Below the pieces are notes generated by a model that saw only the letters and a list, made by a program, of their open reading frames with translations, did not search any database and was not told where the DNA came from. The position numbers and the translations under genes are program-made. A DNA stretch of 64,000 bases from positions 62,001-126,000 of the forward strand of contig NZ_CAMGYY010000002.1 in NCBI RefSeq assembly GCF_946151045.1. The letters run 5' to 3'. The number at the start of each line of letters is the position of its first letter. Position 1 is the first letter of the stretch. The DNA is from Mammaliicoccus sp. Marseille-Q6498 (GTDB lineage Bacteria; Bacillota; Bacilli; Staphylococcales; Staphylococcaceae). Positions 2,690 through 62,166 of this stretch are shown in pieces.

Positions 2690-2923
2690 TTCTAACGACC
2701 ATTATTCGGAATTGTGACCGTTAGCGAGTTCTAACGACCATTATTCAGAATTGTGACCGTTAGCGGGTTCTAACGACCATTATTCGGAATTGTGACCGTT
2801 AGCGAGTTCTAACGACCATTATTCAGAATTGTGACCGTTAGCGGGTTCTAACGACCATTATTCAGAATTGTGACCGTTAGCGGGTTCTAACGACCATTAT
2901 TCAGAATTGTGACCGTTAGCGTT
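2690..2923. repeat. R1 palindromic tandem array, 6 units of 39 bp
   Basis: Six head-to-tail units start at 2690, 2729, 2768, 2807, 2846 and 2885. Each has outer arms CTAACG and CGTTAG, inner blocks CCATTATTC and GAATTGTG around a TTCGGAA or TTCAGAA centre, and a short GAG/GGG linker. Units differ mainly at the G/A central base and in the linker. The array fills the gap between the end of hisI and the upstream region of nos. This is one of several arrays of this family in the window. All three frames are closed, so it is not coding. Confidence 0.95.
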
Positions 2924-2941: not shown

Positions 2942-3574
2942 TTACCAATTATCTACATCTTTTCGTTCGCCTTTAAAGTTTCCGGATTTGTTATGGCGTT
3001 CTTTTAATACTGCTTTTACTTCTTCGATTTTCACGCCTCTGTCATGTAATAAAACAAAGAGGTGATATAAGACGTCTGCTACTTCGTTTGTAAGTTCTAA
3101 ATTATCGTGTTTCATTGCTGCGATGACGACTTCAAATGATTCTTCACCGTATTTTTTCGTGATTTTATCGATGCCTTCTTTTAAAAGGTAGTTTGTATAG
3201 GATTTTGAATTGTTTGAATCGACGCTTTGTTGAATTGTTTCTTCTAATGATTCGATTGTAAAAGGTTCATCAGTTTTGAAACAACTTTGGCTACCTGTAT
3301 GACAAGTAGGGCCGTCTGGGTTTACTTGAATCAATATTGTGTCTTGGTCACAGTCTAATTTAATATCTATTACGTGTTGATAATTTTTAGAGCTTTCTCC
3401 TTTTTTCCATAAACGTTCTTTGCTTCTTGAATAAAACCAGCAAACTTTATCTTGAACTGTTAAGTTATAAGCTTCTTCATTCATATAACCTAGCATGAGT
3501 ACTTGGCCAGTTTTGTAATGTTGCAAAATTGCAGGTATTAGACCTTTAGAAAAATCAGGTGTTAATGGGCTCAT
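2942..3574 (-). CDS. hisI: Bifunctional phosphoribosyl-AMP cyclohydrolase / phosphoribosyl-ATP pyrophosphatase
   Basis: Catalyses steps 2 and 3 of histidine synthesis. The N-terminal ~110 residues are the cyclohydrolase, with the zinc-site region CWFYSRSK and DCDQD followed by CHTGSQSCF. The C-terminal ~90 residues are the pyrophosphatase, with KYGEESFEVVIAA and the NEVADVLYH helix. The fused HisIE form of 210 residues is usual in staphylococci. It is the last gene of the his operon and overlaps hisF by 4 nt at ATGA. A repeat array follows the stop codon, and no separate classical terminator is seen. Confidence 0.95.
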   Translation of the reverse strand: MSPLTPDFSKGLIPAILQHYKTGQVLMLGYMNEEAYNLTVQDKVCWFYSRSKERLWKKGESSKNYQHVIDIKLDCDQDTILIQVNPDGPTCHTGSQSCFKTDEPFTIESLEETIQQSVDSNNSKSYTNYLLKEGIDKITKKYGEESFEVVIAAMKHDNLELTNEVADVLYHLFVLLHDRGVKIEEVKAVLKERHNKSGNFKGERKDVDNW

Positions 3575-10506: not shown

Positions 10507-10530
10507 CTTATTTCATTGTTTGTCAGTTTG

Positions 10531-10633
10531 TAGATAAACTTAACCGATTAAAAACTCGCTTGCCTAGGGTACAGTCTCAGCCTGTAGTCTTCGACTTGTA
10601 CTATTCCCTCAGGCGTCTCGTTTTTAATCGGTT
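10531..10633. repeat. R2 element, copy 1
   Basis: A 103-nt element beginning TAGATAAA, closed by a perfect 14-bp inverted repeat (AACCGATTAAAAAC at 10542 paired with GTTTTTAATCGGTT ending at 10633). Inside, GCCTAGGG can pair with CCCTCAGGC, and two small hairpins (TACAG/CTGTA and AGTC-TTC-GACT) follow one another, giving a multi-branched fold. It differs from the copies at 44039 and 47813 by one base in the 92-nt core (T at 10597). A single inverted R1 unit follows directly. Confidence 0.92.
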
Positions 10634-10639
10634 TTTGTA

Positions 10640-10676
10640 TTCTAACGGTCAGAATTCCGAATAATGGTCGTTAGAA
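10640..10676. repeat. Single R1 palindrome, inverted orientation
   Basis: One unit of the 39-bp family, present as the reverse complement of the units in the long arrays (CTAACGGTCAGAATTCC ... GGTCGTTAG read on the plus strand). It is the only unit in this window oriented this way. It lies directly after R2 copy 1, between convergent genes. Confidence 0.9.
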
Positions 10677-10679
10677 TTC

Positions 10680-10733
10680 CAAAACAAACAAAAAAACTGC
10701 CAACAATTTCACTTTAAGTGAATTTGTCGACAG
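10680..10733 (-). terminator. Hairpin of the CTGCCAACAA family, terminator of the MFS gene
   Basis: Arms CTGCCAACAATTTCACTT and AAGTGAATTTGTCGACAG (10697-10733) form a long stem. On the minus strand it is followed by a run of T residues (10680-10696), as expected for termination of the MFS gene. A close copy of this hairpin occurs at 48265-48301. Confidence 0.7.
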
Positions 10734-10736
10734 TCT

Positions 10737-10766
10737 AACGCAAATCAATTTGATTTGCGTTTTTGT
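10737..10766 (+). terminator. Hairpin with T-run between repeats and MFS gene
   Basis: AACGCAAATCA pairs with TGATTTGCGTT around a 3-base loop, followed by TTTTGTTTTTT on the plus strand. It would stop plus-strand transcripts coming through the repeat region. Confidence 0.65.
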
Positions 10767-10778
10767 TTTTTGATATCG

Positions 10779-11945
10779 TTATTCAGTTTGTAACGGTTCT
10801 TTATGAACAAGTAATAATAGAAATACAATGAATACAAATGAAGCGATTATTGTGAAAAATATTGTGCCGTTTGAAATTTGTATCACTGCGCCACCAATCA
10901 TTGGACCGATAATACTACCAATACTAAATGACATAGCGATCATAAGATTTCCTGCAGGTAAGTTGTGTTTTGGTGTTAAGTCTGTCATAAAGCTTACACC
11001 TAATCCGTAAAACGATCCTGTAAATAATCCTGCTATTAAAAATAATCCCATCATAATAAATGGAGAAGTAGGTAGAAAATCTCCTAAAAAGAATACGATA
11101 CTTCCTATTAAAGTTAATGTTAATAATACTTTTTTTCTTCCATATACATCACTAAACATGCCTAAAGGTACTTGGAACAATATTGCGCCGAGACTAAAAG
11201 CGGGTAATATTAGTGTAATGCTTGTTACGTCGAGTCCGTTTCTTAATCCGTACACTGGAAAGTTGCTGTGCAATCCGGCTTCAAACATTCCGTATAATAG
11301 TGGAAACATAAATGCAATCCAAGAAGTTTTAATAACATCGTTAAAGTTTTTTAATGTATTGATTAAATTAATTGGTCGTACATTTGATGATGGAAATTCA
11401 TTATGAATCATCAAAACTAAAGATATTGTAATAATTGATAGAATTGCTGAAAGGATAAAAGGCAATGCTTCGGAGACATCAACTAGTTTAGCTAATAAAG
11501 GTCCGAGCATAAAACCAGCTGAAAAGCTAAAGCCATAAACTGAAATCGTTCTGCCTAATTTTTCTTTTGGTGTAATATGCGTAAGCCATGTTTGCGTACT
11601 GAAATGTAACATGTTATCACCAATACCAATAAGTAATCTTAATATGAACCAAATGGATAGCGATTTTAAAGTTGGGAATAGCAACAACGATATAGCGACA
11701 ATTGCGCCACCAACTAAAATCATATATTTAAATCCAGTTTTTCTTACAAGTCCTTCAATAAAGAATGAAGATAAAAAGACACCAATATATAAGGACGTAG
11801 CATGTAAACCGTTTAATGAACTTGAAATGCCACTTCTTTCAAAAATGACAGAAATTAAAGGTAAAAGCATGCCTTGTGAGAAACCAGAAATAGCTACAAT
11901 AATTGATAAAATGATGAATAATTTTTTGAATGATGAATTTTTCAT
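10779..11945 (-). CDS. MFS transporter, drug-efflux-like
   Basis: A 388-residue polytopic protein with about 12 hydrophobic segments and the layout of the major facilitator superfamily. The loop after TM2 carries GLVRKTGFKYM, a degraded form of the motif-A region, and MFSDVYGRKKVLL in the second half is a clear motif-A copy. This is the size and architecture of drug/H+ antiporter-like exporters. The substrate cannot be told from sequence. The start at 11945 has GGGAGG 7 nt upstream, so the in-frame codon at 11960 is not used. It stands alone, divergent from pncB. Confidence 0.82.
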   Translation of the reverse strand: MKNSSFKKLFIILSIIVAISGFSQGMLLPLISVIFERSGISSSLNGLHATSLYIGVFLSSFFIEGLVRKTGFKYMILVGGAIVAISLLLFPTLKSLSIWFILRLLIGIGDNMLHFSTQTWLTHITPKEKLGRTISVYGFSFSAGFMLGPLLAKLVDVSEALPFILSAILSIITISLVLMIHNEFPSSNVRPINLINTLKNFNDVIKTSWIAFMFPLLYGMFEAGLHSNFPVYGLRNGLDVTSITLILPAFSLGAILFQVPLGMFSDVYGRKKVLLTLTLIGSIVFFLGDFLPTSPFIMMGLFLIAGLFTGSFYGLGVSFMTDLTPKHNLPAGNLMIAMSFSIGSIIGPMIGGAVIQISNGTIFFTIIASFVFIVFLLLLVHKEPLQTE

Positions 11946-44038: not shown

Positions 44039-44141
44039 TAGATAAAAATAACCGATTAAAAACTCGCTTGCCTAGGGTACAGTCTCAGCCTGTAGTCTTC
44101 GACTCGTACTATTCCCTCAGGCGTCTCGTTTTTAATCGGTT
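44039..44141. repeat. R2 element, copy 2
   Basis: Same 103-nt element as at 10531 and 47813: TAGATAAA leader, 14-bp closing stem (starting AACCG at 44050, ending CGGTT at 44141), the GCCTAGGG/CCCTCAGGC helix and two inner hairpins. The 92-nt core is identical to copy 3. It runs directly into the variant palindrome array. Confidence 0.92.
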
Positions 44142-45740: not shown

Positions 45741-47051
45741 ATGAAGAAGTTTGTTGCGAAAAATGTAGCGAAACTTGCAAGATACGCAAGTCGAAAAGTA
45801 GGGAAACAAGGTACGGATCTTCCGGGACAAGTTGCACGTAAGATAGATCCATTAATCTTAAGAAAACTAGCTAATGATGTAGATGAAATCGTTATGATTA
45901 GTGGTACGAATGGTAAAACAACAACATCTAATTTAATAGGATATACTTTAAAAAAGAACAATATAAATATTATACATAACACTGAAGGTGCCAATATGGC
46001 GGCGGGAATTACATCTAGTTTTATTGTACAATCAAATGAAAATACAAAGATTGCCATAATAGAAATAGATGAAGGTTCAATACCAAGAGTTTTAAATGAA
46101 ATGACGCCTACAATGATGGTCGTAACAAACTTTTTTAGAGACCAAATGGATAGATTTGGTGAAATTGATATTATGGTCGATAACATTGCACAATCAATTA
46201 AAGATAAAGGCATTAAACTACTGTTAAATGCTGATGATCCTTTCGTAAGTCGTTTGAAAATAGCAAGCGACGATATTGTATATTACGGTATGAGAGCAGA
46301 TGTTCATGAGTTCGAACAAAGTACGATGGTTGAAAGTAAATACTGTCCTAACTGTGGACGCTTATTGAACTATAGCCATATACATTATAATCAAATTGGT
46401 CATTATACGTGTGAATGTGGATTTAAACGTGAGAAACCACAATATGAAGTGACTTCATTTACGCAAGATCCATTTATTAAAGTAGGCTTAAATGATGAAC
46501 AATTTAATATGAAGATAGCAGGAGATTACAACGTCTTTAATGTCATTGCGGCTTATACAGTCTTGAAAAAATTAGGATTAAACGATCAAAATATTAAAAA
46601 AGGTTTTGAAACTTATACTTCTGACAATGGTCGAATGCAGTACTATAAAAATAGTAAAAAAGAAACTTTAATTAATTTGGCTAAAAATCCAGCCGGTTTA
46701 AATGCGAGTTTATCTGTAGGTGAACAAATTGATGAAGAAAAAGTATTTTTAATCAGTTTAAATGACAATGGCGCAGATGGGAAAGATATTTCTTGGATTT
46801 ATGATGCTGACTTTGAAAAACTTTCAAGGCAGAATATTAAAGCGATAATCTGTACTGGGCAAAGAGCTGAAGAATTGGCTTTACGTTTAAAATACGCTGA
46901 AGTAGATTCAGAAATCATTGTAGAACATTCAATTGAGACTGCTACAGAATTGTCTATGACATATCCTCAGTTTACTGTTGCGATACCGAACTATACGTCA
47001 TTATCACCAATGCATAGAACATTAAACAAAGCATTTAAGGAGGAAAAATAA
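45741..47051 (+). CDS. murT: Lipid II isoglutaminyl synthase subunit MurT
   Basis: Mur-ligase-like subunit that activates the D-Glu alpha-carboxylate of lipid II so that GatD can amidate it. 436 residues: ATP-binding [12 protein letters not shown] (about 55-66), the inserted zinc ribbon CPNCGRLL ... CECG (about 205-230) that marks MurT, a DNAGRMQ-like DNGRMQYY segment, and the C-terminal DUF1727 domain with [19 protein letters not shown]. The last codon overlaps the gatD start. AAGGAGG precedes the ATG. Confidence 0.95.
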
Positions 47052-47773
47052 TGTCATCTATAAAGATATTCCATTTCATGCCTGATAAATTAAATCTTTA
47101 CGGAGATATAGGGAATATTATTGCGCTTAAAAAACGTGCAAATTGGCGTAATATCGATGTAGAAGTAGTAGATATTACGGATACAGAAAATTTAAGTTTA
47201 GATGAATGTGACATTTTCTTTATAGGTGGTGGCAGTGATAGAGAGCAAAGCCTTGCTACAGAACAATTAAAGAAAATTAAAACACAACTTAAAAATGCAA
47301 TTGAAGACGGTATGCCGACTTTAACAATATGTGGAGGGTACCAATTTTTAGGTTCAGAATATGTAACACCAGACGGTACAAGATTAGAAGGATTGAATAT
47401 CCTCAATATTTATACTGAATCAAAAAAAGAAAGATTAACAGGTGATATTGTTATAGAGTCTGAAACATTCGGACAAATTGTTGGTTTTGAAAATCATGGC
47501 GGTAGAACGTATCATGACTATCCAACACTTGGAAGAGTCGTTAATGGATTTGGTAATAATGAAAATGACAAAAAAGAAGGTATACATTACAAAAACCTTC
47601 TAGGAACGTATTTACATGGACCAATATTGCCGAAAAATCACGAAATTACAGATTACTTATTGAAACAAGCGTGTGAAAGAAAAGGAATTGAATTCGCACC
47701 AGAACAATTAGATAATACTGTAGAAGAATCAGCAAAACAAGCAATAATTCATAGATTATTAAAAGAAAAATAA
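47051..47773 (+). CDS. gatD: Lipid II isoglutaminyl synthase glutaminase subunit GatD
   Basis: Class I glutaminase-like partner of MurT. The nucleophile is in [10 protein letters not shown] (Cys near residue 94) and the catalytic His in [14 protein letters not shown]. 240 residues. It delivers ammonia for amidation of peptidoglycan stem D-Glu to D-isoGln, which affects cross-linking, growth and beta-lactam susceptibility in staphylococci. The 1-nt overlap with murT ensures equal synthesis. Confidence 0.95.
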
Positions 47774-47812
47774 ACAGAAGCAGTGCTCGAAATTGAGCAC
47801 TGCTTTTGTTTA
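47774..47812 (+). terminator. Terminator after murT-gatD
   Basis: AAGCAGTGCTC / GAGCACTGCTT hairpin (47778-47805) followed by TTGTT. Its 27-nt core recurs at 48307-48333, at the far side of the repeat region. Confidence 0.85.
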
Positions 47813-47915
47813 TAGATAAAATTAACCGATTAAAAACTCGCTTGCCTAGGGTACAGTCTCAGCCTGTAGTCTTCGACTCGTACTATTCCCTCAGGCGTCT
47901 CGTTTTTAATCGGTT
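47813..47915. repeat. R2 element, copy 3
   Basis: Third copy of the 103-nt element. The closing 14-bp stem runs from AACCG at 47824 to CGGTT at 47915. The 92-nt core is identical to copy 2 at 44050-44141. It lies 8 nt after the murT-gatD terminator hairpin and is followed within 6 nt by the R3 palindrome array. Confidence 0.92.
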
Positions 47916-47921
47916 TTTGTT

Positions 47922-48256
47922 CTTACTAGAAAGACTTTGAGAACAATCTAGTTAGAATTTCTAACTAGAAAGAATACAAAAACAATCTAGTTAGAGCTAT
48001 TTTGCTTATAAAAATGTGTAATTTCACATTAATTCCATTGATTTTCAGCTCTAACTAGAAAGACTTGGACTAACAATCTAGTTAGATTTTCTAACTAGAA
48101 AGAATTGCACAAACAATCTAGTTAGCGCTATTTTGCTTACAAAAACATGTAATATCACACTTATTTCGTTGGTTTTTAGCTCTAACTAGAAAGAATTTGC
48201 ACAAACAATCTAGTTAGAATTTCTAACTAGAAAGAATGCAAAAACAATCTAGTAAG
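47922..48256. repeat. R3 palindromic array: three pairs of CTAACTAGA/TCTAGTTAG units
   Basis: Six ~34-36-nt palindromes start at 47922, 47961, 48051, 48091, 48182 and 48223. Each has CTAACTAGA (first unit CTTACTAGA) and TCTAGTTAG (last unit TCTAGTAAG) arms around a variable AAAGA ... AACAA middle. They occur as pairs about 40 nt apart; successive pairs are separated by a ~56-nt spacer beginning GCTATTTTGCTTA that is itself conserved between the two copies, so the higher-order period is 129-131 nt. Lies between convergent genes. Confidence 0.93.
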
Positions 48257-48264
48257 CGCAAAAA

Positions 48265-48301
48265 CTGCCAACAAGTTCACTTTAAGTGACTTTGTTGACA
48301 G
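48265..48301. repeat. Second copy of the CTGCCAACAA hairpin
   Basis: CTGCCAACAAGTTCACTT and AAGTGACTTTGTTGACAG arms. It is close to the hairpin at 10697-10733, differing at 3 positions of 37. A short T-run on the minus strand (TTTTTGCG) follows it, so it may back up the terminator of the ArAE gene. Confidence 0.8.
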
Positions 48302-48305
48302 TCAA

Positions 48306-48340
48306 AAGCAGTGCTCGAAATTGAGCACTGCTTCTTTATT
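48306..48340 (-). terminator. Terminator of the ArAE-type gene, near-copy of 47778-47805
   Basis: AAGCAGTGCTC / GAGCACTGCTT, identical core to the murT-gatD terminator. On the minus strand it is followed by TTTTGACTG. Confidence 0.75.
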
Positions 48341-49344
48341 TAATCTTCTTTTACAGTTTTTTTAAGGTATCGATTGTTTATAATTTTATTGATCATTAGT
48401 ATTTCGTATATAATATGACTTTTAATTTGGTTATCATCGAATTCGTCTATGCCTTTGACACTATTTTTAAGTGTTGAGGCTGCTTTTTTATGTCTAATTA
48501 ATTCTTGATGTTCAAAGAGATGTTTGTAAGATTTGATTAGATTGAGAATTGCTAATCTTTCTTTTTCAGTAAATATAATTCTCGTATCTTCAGGTAAATA
48601 AATTAAATTTAATAAATGTGCATTAAGTAATCGGTTTGTATGGTAAGACATTTCTACTTTTCGTATGTATGATTTGGATTCCTTTTTAGTTCTATGATAG
48701 TCGTATTCTTCTTTTTGATATTTAATAAGCTGTTCAATTTTAGTTGCTGATTGTTGAATGGAGGTCATATTCTTTATTGAAATGCTTGATTCATATTCTC
48801 CAAGCAAAAGTTCTTTTAAACGATGAATGTATATTTCTAAAATTTTCTGTTCCATTGTTTTATTAATATCTTCAATTTGGCTAATGTATTTAGGCGGTAA
48901 AATAATAAAATTAACAATTCCGGCTGTCGCTAATCCGATTGTAGTTGTCGCTAATCTTGATACAAAGTTATAAACGAACGCTTCATGTATAACAGGTACC
49001 ATTGCTACAGCTGTAATTGCGGCTACGAGCATGCCATCCATTAATTTTAATTGGTAACAGACCAATATGGTAACAGTTGCTGCTAGTGAGAAGCTAAGAG
49101 GTGATTCTCCAAAGAAATAAGTACTTATAACTGCTATTAAAGCACCTATTACTGAAGCGGGAAAACGAACATACGCTTTTTTGAGTGATGCTTTTGCAGT
49201 AGGTTCAATCGTTACGATAGAAGTGATGACCGCAAAAATAGGATTTAAATTAAGTGTCATACAAATTAATCCTGTTAAAAAAGTAGCCAATCCTGTCTTT
49301 ATAATTCTTGCGCCGATAATTTTAGTTAACCAATTTTCTCTCAT
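48340..49344 (-). CDS. Aromatic acid exporter family protein (ArAE/FUSC-like)
   Basis: A 334-residue protein with an N-terminal half of about six hydrophobic segments (GARIIKTGLATFLTGLI, FAVITSIVTIEPTAKASLKKAY, FPASVIGALIAVISTYFF and others) and a C-terminal cytoplasmic helical half rich in Lys and Glu. This is the layout of the Gram-positive ArAE_1/DUF939 family, sometimes annotated as aromatic acid exporters. The substrate is unproven. The start at 49344 has GGAG 8 nt upstream; a TTG two codons earlier is less likely. Divergent from map. Confidence 0.85.
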   Translation of the reverse strand: MRENWLTKIIGARIIKTGLATFLTGLICMTLNLNPIFAVITSIVTIEPTAKASLKKAYVRFPASVIGALIAVISTYFFGESPLSFSLAATVTILVCYQLKLMDGMLVAAITAVAMVPVIHEAFVYNFVSRLATTTIGLATAGIVNFIILPPKYISQIEDINKTMEQKILEIYIHRLKELLLGEYESSISIKNMTSIQQSATKIEQLIKYQKEEYDYHRTKKESKSYIRKVEMSYHTNRLLNAHLLNLIYLPEDTRIIFTEKERLAILNLIKSYKHLFEHQELIRHKKAASTLKNSVKGIDEFDDNQIKSHIIYEILMINKIINNRYLKKTVKED

Positions 49345-49442
49345 ATTCAAAACTCCAAAATCATTTTTTTATAGTATAACACTATATTTCTGATATAATA
49401 ATAAACGACGAAAAAATTTTAAAAAGAAAGAACGGGATTTAA

Positions 49443-58209: not shown

Positions 58210-58240
58210 TGTAAGGAGCAGAATTGTGACCGTTAGCGGA
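58210..58240. repeat. Chimeric half-unit at the left edge of the 58-kb R1 array
   Basis: TTGTAAGGAGCAGAATT is the reverse complement of the right half of an R1v unit (GAATTCTGCTCCTTACAG), and it passes at GAATT directly into GTGACCGTTAGCG, the right half of an R1 unit. So two palindrome families are joined at their common centre. Confidence 0.8.
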
Positions 58241-58552
58241 TTCTAACGACCATTATTCGGAATTGTGACCGTTAGCGAGTTCTAACGACCATTATTCGGA
58301 ATTGTGACCGTTAGCGGGTTCTAACGACCATTATTCGGAATTGTGACCGTTAGCGGATTCTAACGACCATTATTCAGAATTGTGACCGTTAGCGGGTTCT
58401 AACGACCATTATTCGGAATTGTGACCGTTAGCGAGTTCTAACGACCATTATTCAGAATTGTGACCGTTAGAGAGTTTTAACGACCATTATTCGGAATTGT
58501 GACCGTTAGCGGGTTCTAACGACCATTATTCGGAATTGTGACCGTTACAGTC
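58241..58552. repeat. R1 palindromic array, 8 units of 39 bp
   Basis: Full units start at 58241, 58280, 58319, 58358, 58397, 58436, 58475 and 58514. All have GAATTGTG in the right half. One unit (58475) starts TTTTAACG instead of TTCTAACG, and the last ends GTTACAG, a linker otherwise typical of R1v. The array lies between convergent genes. Confidence 0.95.
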
Positions 58553-61661: not shown

Positions 61662-62166
61662 TTCTAACGACCATTATTCAGAATTGTGACCGTTAGCGAG
61701 TTCTAACGACCATTATTCAGAATTCTGACCGTTAGCGAGTCAAACGACCATTATTCAGAATTGTGACCGTTAGCGAGTTCTAACGACCATTATTCAGAAT
61801 TCTGACCGTTAGCGGGTTCTAACGACCATTATTCGGAATTCTGACCGTTAGCGGGTTCTAACGACCATTATTCGGAATTCTGACCGTTACAGCATTCTAA
61901 CGACCATTATTCGGAATTCTGACCGTTAGAGCATTCTAACGACCATTATTCGGAATTCTGACCGTTAGCGGATTCTAACGACCATTATTCAGAATTCTGA
62001 CCGTTAGCGGGTTCTAACGACCATTATTCAGAATTCTGACCGTTAGCGGGTTCTAACGACCATTATTCGGAATTCTGACCGTTAGCGAGTTCTAACGACC
62101 ATTATTCGGAATTCTGACCGTTAGCGGGTTCTAACGACCATTATTCAGAATTCTGACCGTTAGAGC
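61662..62166. repeat. R1 palindromic array, 13 units of ~39 bp
   Basis: Unit starts: 61662, 61701, 61740 (38 bp, TCAAACG variant), 61778, 61817, 61856, 61895, 61934, 61973, 62012, 62051, 62090 and 62129. The first and fourth-from-left G-type units (GAATTGTG) alternate at the left end with C-type units (GAATTCTG); from the fifth unit onward all are C-type. Linkers include GAG, GGG, GGA, ACAGCA and AGAGCA. The array lies between convergent genes (NERD and pyruvate oxidase). Confidence 0.95.

Follow-up and report, generated by a model that had tools for sequence, protein, structure and literature searches.

R3 palindrome pairs of Mammaliicoccus as the probable internal tandem-hairpin module of a BOX-like modular element related to IS1182

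The BOX elements of Streptococcus pneumoniae follow the plan boxA-boxB(n)-boxC, and their ends have been proposed to match the resident ISSpn2 (PMC3049150). In S. suis, the same inner BOX module is found between different outer modules (PMC3049150). IS1272 and TnSha1, members of the IS1182 family from Staphylococcus, target hairpins, often terminators, with no sequence consensus; their insertion deletes or replaces the hairpin, and no duplication results (PMC4923244, PMC5678879). A further route, pathway b, has been proposed, in which the element would be joined to the other foot of the stem-loop and the hairpin would be duplicated as a whole (PMC5678879). Two other families are known from S. 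aureus: the small RNA tsr24 (RF02577) and the STAR repeats, whose origin is given as unknown (PMC3532100).

We analyzed a window of 64,000 nucleotides from Mammaliicoccus sp. Marseille-Q6498 (contig NZ_CAMGYY010000002.1, positions 62,001 to 126,000), in which a sequence-only reading had noted an array of paired palindromes, R3. Based on sequence comparison, R3 very probably forms the tandem-hairpin interior of a miniature element (MITE) that is non-autonomous, has a BOX-like modular plan, and is related to an insertion sequence of the IS1182 family. By analogy, the modular plan is closest to that of pneumococcal BOX (PMC3049150). The likeness is one of plan, namely fixed outer modules, a variable number of tandem inner hairpins, lack of coding capacity, many copies, and ends that resemble those of a resident insertion sequence. 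Unlike BOX, the Mammaliicoccus elements belong to another genus and are related to another insertion sequence family, they are flanked by a duplication of a whole terminator hairpin, and the type of array itself (R1, R1v, or R3) is swapped. They resemble IS1272 and TnSha1 in their association with an IS1182-family transposase and in their hairpin or terminator targets, but both the insertion sequence and the MITE described here leave a full hairpin on each side, and they look like the outcome of pathway b (PMC5678879). The R2 core of the element matches tsr24, although tsr24 lacks R3 and the match beyond the core is weak. Our literature search found no paper on such Mammaliicoccus elements.

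The array consists of six imperfect CTAAC/GTTAG palindromes of 34 to 36 nt that form three pairs, and the sequence-only reading had placed it correctly, at 47922 to 48256. Gaps of 5, 56, 5, 56, and 5 nt separate the palindromes, resulting in a period of approximately 130 nt. The outer CTAAC and GTTAG arms are perfect in four of the six, with a single-base change in palindrome 1 (CTTAC) and another in palindrome 6 (GTAAG). The two 56-nt spacers, compared together with their flanking arms, are 86% identical. Across the window, the pattern CTAAC-N10-40-GTTAG was observed 30 times, compared to 1.2 expected from shuffles.

Although the array coordinates hold, the true unit is larger (Table 1). The R3 palindromes are not a free-standing repeat; they are the inner part of a probable mobile element whose ends and duplicated terminators had been missed. 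The array fills the middle of this 500-bp element (47806 to 48305), in which the left end is followed by the R2 core, the array, and the right end, and which contains no open reading frame of 80 amino acids. The AAGCAGTGCTCGAAATTGAGCACTGCTT hairpin abuts both ends, lying just before the left end and just after the right end. The element is located between an upstream gene (47051 to 47773) and a convergent gene (48340 to 49350). In five sibling species, the same two genes are adjacent, with a short intergenic region that carries a terminator-like hairpin and lacks the element. In a sibling species, G022, the orthologous intergenic region (L243, after 2220) contains a different hairpin array, ATGTTGC-TTGTTTGGTAAGTCTT-GCAACAT, with arms unrelated to those of R3 and a loop nearly identical to the R3 loop.

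Table 1. Features of the R3-bearing element, in window positions
Feature	Position	Strand	Remarks
Intrinsic terminator hairpin, left of the two copies (target-site duplication)	47778-47805	.	AAGCAGTGCTCGAAATTGAGCACTGCTT, identical to 48306-48333
Left terminal inverted repeat region (TL)	47806-47823	+	TTGTTTATAGATAAAATT; family consensus CAGTTTGTAGATAAACTTAA
R2 core, structured IS1182 subterminal module	47824-47915	-	Rfam tsr24, RF02577
R3 palindromes 1 and 2 (pair 1, 47922-47994)	47922-47955, 47961-47994	+	
Spacer 1, 56 nt	47995-48050	+	86% repeat family D2
R3 palindromes 3 and 4 (pair 2, 48051-48125)	48051-48085, 48091-48125	+	
Spacer 2, 56 nt	48126-48181	+	
R3 palindromes 5 and 6 (pair 3, 48182-48256)	48182-48217, 48223-48256	+	
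Right end (TR), 49 nt, imperfect-palindrome terminal inverted repeat	48257-48305	+	Family consensus AGTGACTTTGTCGACAGTCT
Right copy of the duplicated terminator hairpin	48306-48333	.	Same hairpin as 47778-47805

We mapped related copies in a sample of approximately 340 kb of loci fetched through R2, end, and R3 matches; therefore, co-occurrence rates in this map are not unbiased. The map contains approximately 100 element clusters, in which the order TL, R2, array, TR recurs (66 TL, 68 R2, and 66 TR matches). The TL and TR consensus ends are identical at 12 of 17 positions as inverted repeats, and the TR consensus end AGTGACTTTGTCGACAGTCT has 63 sites in the genome, compared to 0 in a reversed control. 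The slot for the array holds either R1/R1v or R3. We counted 239 R1 palindromes and 188 R3-type palindromes in the map, and in nearly all R3 arrays the spacing alternates between 5 nt and 56 to 58 nt. The copy in the window is of the TA subtype. With terminal inverted repeats, a target-site duplication, short length, many copies, and no transposase gene, the elements have the properties of MITEs.

For the 42 copies with two ends, we scored the match between the 60-nt flanks that adjoin the left and right ends, using all mismatched flank pairs as the control. In 27 of the 42 copies, the match exceeded the 99th percentile of the mismatched pairs (median score 49 for true pairs; null median 13, null maximum 41). 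The duplicated stretches are 22 to 44 nt long, lie mostly 0 to 2 nt from the element ends, and contain a stem of at least 9 pairs in 26 of 27 cases (96%), compared to 12% of random stretches. They are complete terminator hairpins that differ between loci. The same duplication was found at five of the seven assessable elements in G022, which is another species. No clear duplication is present in the other 15 of the 42 copies, which may reflect decay, deletion, or another insertion mode. The elements insert at palindromic stem-loops, as IS1182 elements do, and the hairpin replacement known for IS1272 was not found: both hairpins are kept in the 27 MITE copies and at two insertion sequences of the same genome, L069 and L070. 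With the hairpin duplicated, the host gene would retain a terminator, and the element would sit between two terminators.

L069 and L070 are 1.64 kb long and 99.8% identical, each lies between two copies of one terminator hairpin, and each encodes a transposase of 459 amino acids that matches the IS1182 family model (NCBIfam NF033551, 453 bits). Their left end is identical to the right end of the MITE (the first 17 bases of TR) at 16 of 17 positions, and their right end is identical to the MITE left end (the TL consensus) at 13 of 17. Given the weaker match of the MITE left end, the true helper may be a different IS1182 element, possibly one that has been lost. An R2-like core with the same apical sequence, TCTCAGCCTGTAGTCTTCGA, adjoins the left end of the IS1182 element, which carries no R3. 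Ends and subterminal core are common to the MITE and to an insertion sequence with an IS1182-family transposase, and a resident insertion sequence with matching ends, core, and target indicates that the element is an IS1182-related, BOX-like modular MITE.

The R2 core itself is highly structured (fold z -5.2) and gave a cmscan match to tsr24 of 68.5 bits over 47800 to 48039 on the minus strand. One fold is common to twelve R2-type cores from the MITE, IS1182 elements, and staphylococcal tsr24 loci, with double compensatory changes at 11 of its 21 pairs. The tsr24 loci of S. aureus-like genomes occupy an end of an IS1182-family element, adjacent to its transposase. The shared fold and the position of tsr24 at IS1182 ends indicate that R2 is a subterminal module of IS1182 elements. 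A phage origin of the element was rejected because no phage match was found, and a plasmid origin was rejected because the plasmid matches listed span the R2 core alone, 13% of the query. A second, different IS1182-family element is present at L071 (1322 to 3001, 559 amino acids), with an R2-like core at 3100 to 3190 that has the apex GCTCGAGCC. At L193 (about 1640 to 1730) and L196 (about 1650 to 1700), a STAR-like repeat and another hairpin lie inside the apical loop of an IS1182/tsr24 core. STAR arrays, like R3 arrays, are intergenic tandem hairpins of variable copy number (PMC3532100). We rejected kinship between the two: 23 STAR sites examined in one S. aureus-like genome have no R2 core within 1.5 kb, no element ends, and no duplicated terminator, and the 14-bp STAR motif, T(G/A/T)TGTTG(G/T)GGCCC(C/A), was detected 0 times in the window with up to 2 mismatches.

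The sequence-only reading had proposed that R1, R1v, and R3 are forms of one element class, in which the inner arms change while the outer CTAAC/GTTAG is kept. The map bears out the first part of this proposal. The three types are alternative arrays in one slot after R2: copies that have a core or a left end contain R3 alone in 35 cases, R1/R1v alone in 37, and both in 2. The second part applies within R3. Among related copies, positions 6 and 9 of the R3 arms covary across all four arms between subtypes and species, CTAAC and G8 are constant, and positions 5 and 7 are often mismatched; this covariation extends to all four arm combinations and fits pair-level nested folding as well as single-palindrome folding. 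The second part does not apply between R1 and R3, whose difference goes beyond an exchange of inner arms in one sequence: R1 consists of a single 39-nt unit and was found in one of eight Mammaliicoccus genomes (the source genome only), and R3 is a paired unit of 130 nt found in at least four. M. fleurettii, M. lentus, and G020 have R3-type pairs with the 5/57-58-nt alternation and other covarying arms, and other Mammaliicoccus carry unrelated hairpin arrays with units of approximately 40 nt in the same kind of element. Separate distributions of R1 and R3 with no link to R2 had been named as evidence against a common class; the distributions do differ, but both types are firmly linked to R2.

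Identical 97-nt R2 cores bear R1, R3-TA, R3-TC, or R3-GA arrays, which indicates that the arrays either turn over faster than the frame or are exchanged on it. Within one copy, units resemble each other more closely (0.919) than they resemble same-subtype units of other copies (0.882). In the map, the orientation relative to the core is fixed for R3 (35 of 37 copies) and R1v (17 of 17), and R1 has the opposite orientation in 19 of 22. From the matching ends, core, and target, it appears that an IS1182 transposase could act in trans on the MITE ends. In this scheme, the element ends would be joined by the transposase to both feet of a terminator stem-loop, with the hairpin then duplicated by gap repair. 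Array copies may be added or lost locally, and entire arrays (R1, R1v, and the R3 subtypes) may be swapped between elements by recombination through the shared core and ends.

Regularly spaced palindromic repeats could also be read as a CRISPR-type array, but CRISPR spacers are not expected to repeat each other, and this interpretation is refuted because the R3 spacers do: they are copies of one sequence, 86% alike in the window and alike within subtypes across the family, and transposon ends bound the array. We regard it as having essentially no chance of being correct. That the repeats are host regulatory or chromosome-organization sites located after genes, and not mobile DNA, would fit their large number and their intergenic positions beside terminators; this is contradicted by the terminator duplications, the terminal repeats shared with an insertion sequence, the empty sites in sibling species, and the mixed arrays on identical cores, and we consider it very improbable. 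The sequence-only reading had suggested binding sites for a protein (a transposase or host factor) of changing specificity, with one protein variant for each palindrome type. The joint change of positions 6 and 9 in four arms, with CTAAC and G8 unchanged, is what such sites might show, but concerted evolution of tandem copies yields the same pattern, uncompensated variation occurs at position 7 and, in one arm, at position 5, and the resident IS1182 element lacks such a site. No such protein was found, and because several arm types coexist in one genome, one protein per type is not a simple fit; binding of this kind seems rather unlikely.

We consider R3 most likely to be structured cargo of a selfish element. 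Its main rival, possibly correct though on balance doubtful, is that R3 acts as a structured transcript, either a functional RNA or a series of tandem minus-strand intrinsic terminators, and has spread through a benefit to the host or the element. On the minus strand, the inner hairpin is followed by TTGTTT, a terminator-like arrangement in all three window pairs, and the 8 nt that follow the inner arm contain at least five T in 89 of 89 pairs on the minus strand and in 0 on the plus strand. The minus strand also folds better than the plus strand after dinucleotide shuffling, both here (median z -3.88 versus -3.12, from related copies that are not independent sequences) and in G020 (-5.56 versus -4.74). 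The T-rich stretch after every inner arm and the better minus-strand folding hint at strand-polar structure, and both the fixed orientation of R3 and the tsr24 match of the core on the same strand agree with this. However, nearly perfect inner stems are common in the TA subtype alone (15 of 19 pairs, compared to 5 of 48 GA and 0 of 21 TC pairs), and wobble-type mismatches are few compared to others (A.C 27, G.T 13 over four overlapping pairings, counts too weak to rely on). In addition, no promoter above background was found, and the terminators on both sides of the element should block read-in. A further suggestion, which we consider quite unlikely, is that the arrays are an active module of IS1182-related MITEs, with hairpins whose stems covary and change freely and which are recognized as single strands or as RNA by an element or host factor, and that the arrays may even grow by repeated hairpin duplication through the same transposition chemistry; in G022, the loop edges TTGTTT...TCTT are kept with quite different arms.

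As probable IS1182-related MITEs, the elements provide many natural IS1182-type insertions that duplicate a complete terminator hairpin, an outcome previously just proposed for IS1272, for which the published cases consulted are deletions. The choice between replacement and duplication is therefore directly testable. The Rfam small-RNA family tsr24 is explained as the end of an insertion sequence, and Staphylococcaceae gain a BOX-like modular element that trades its inner arrays while the mobile frame stays constant, with the host terminator left intact.

Several arrays depart from the usual arrangement. Neither a core nor ends lie close to eight arrays in the map, and three R1 arrays in the window (2692 to 2919, 58243 to 58548, and 61664 to 62163) likewise lack an R2 core and nearby ends; the first unit of the orphan array near 58220 is a fusion of an R1v half-unit and an R1 half-unit. 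Two further tsr24/R2 copies are present in the window: a small element that has both ends and contains one R1 unit (10516 to 10789), and a copy with an R1v array that lacks the right end (44053 to 44138). At C3:588959-589360 of G000, a compound element consists of an R1-type element joined to an R3-type element, and the two together lie between two copies of one terminator. Other insertion sequences, with the ends GGGGTGCGGTGCAAAT and TTTTGGGGTTCAGACCA, seem to lie inside or at R3 arrays at L011, L022, L030, and L031 (about 1500), which suggests that the arrays may double as landing sites.
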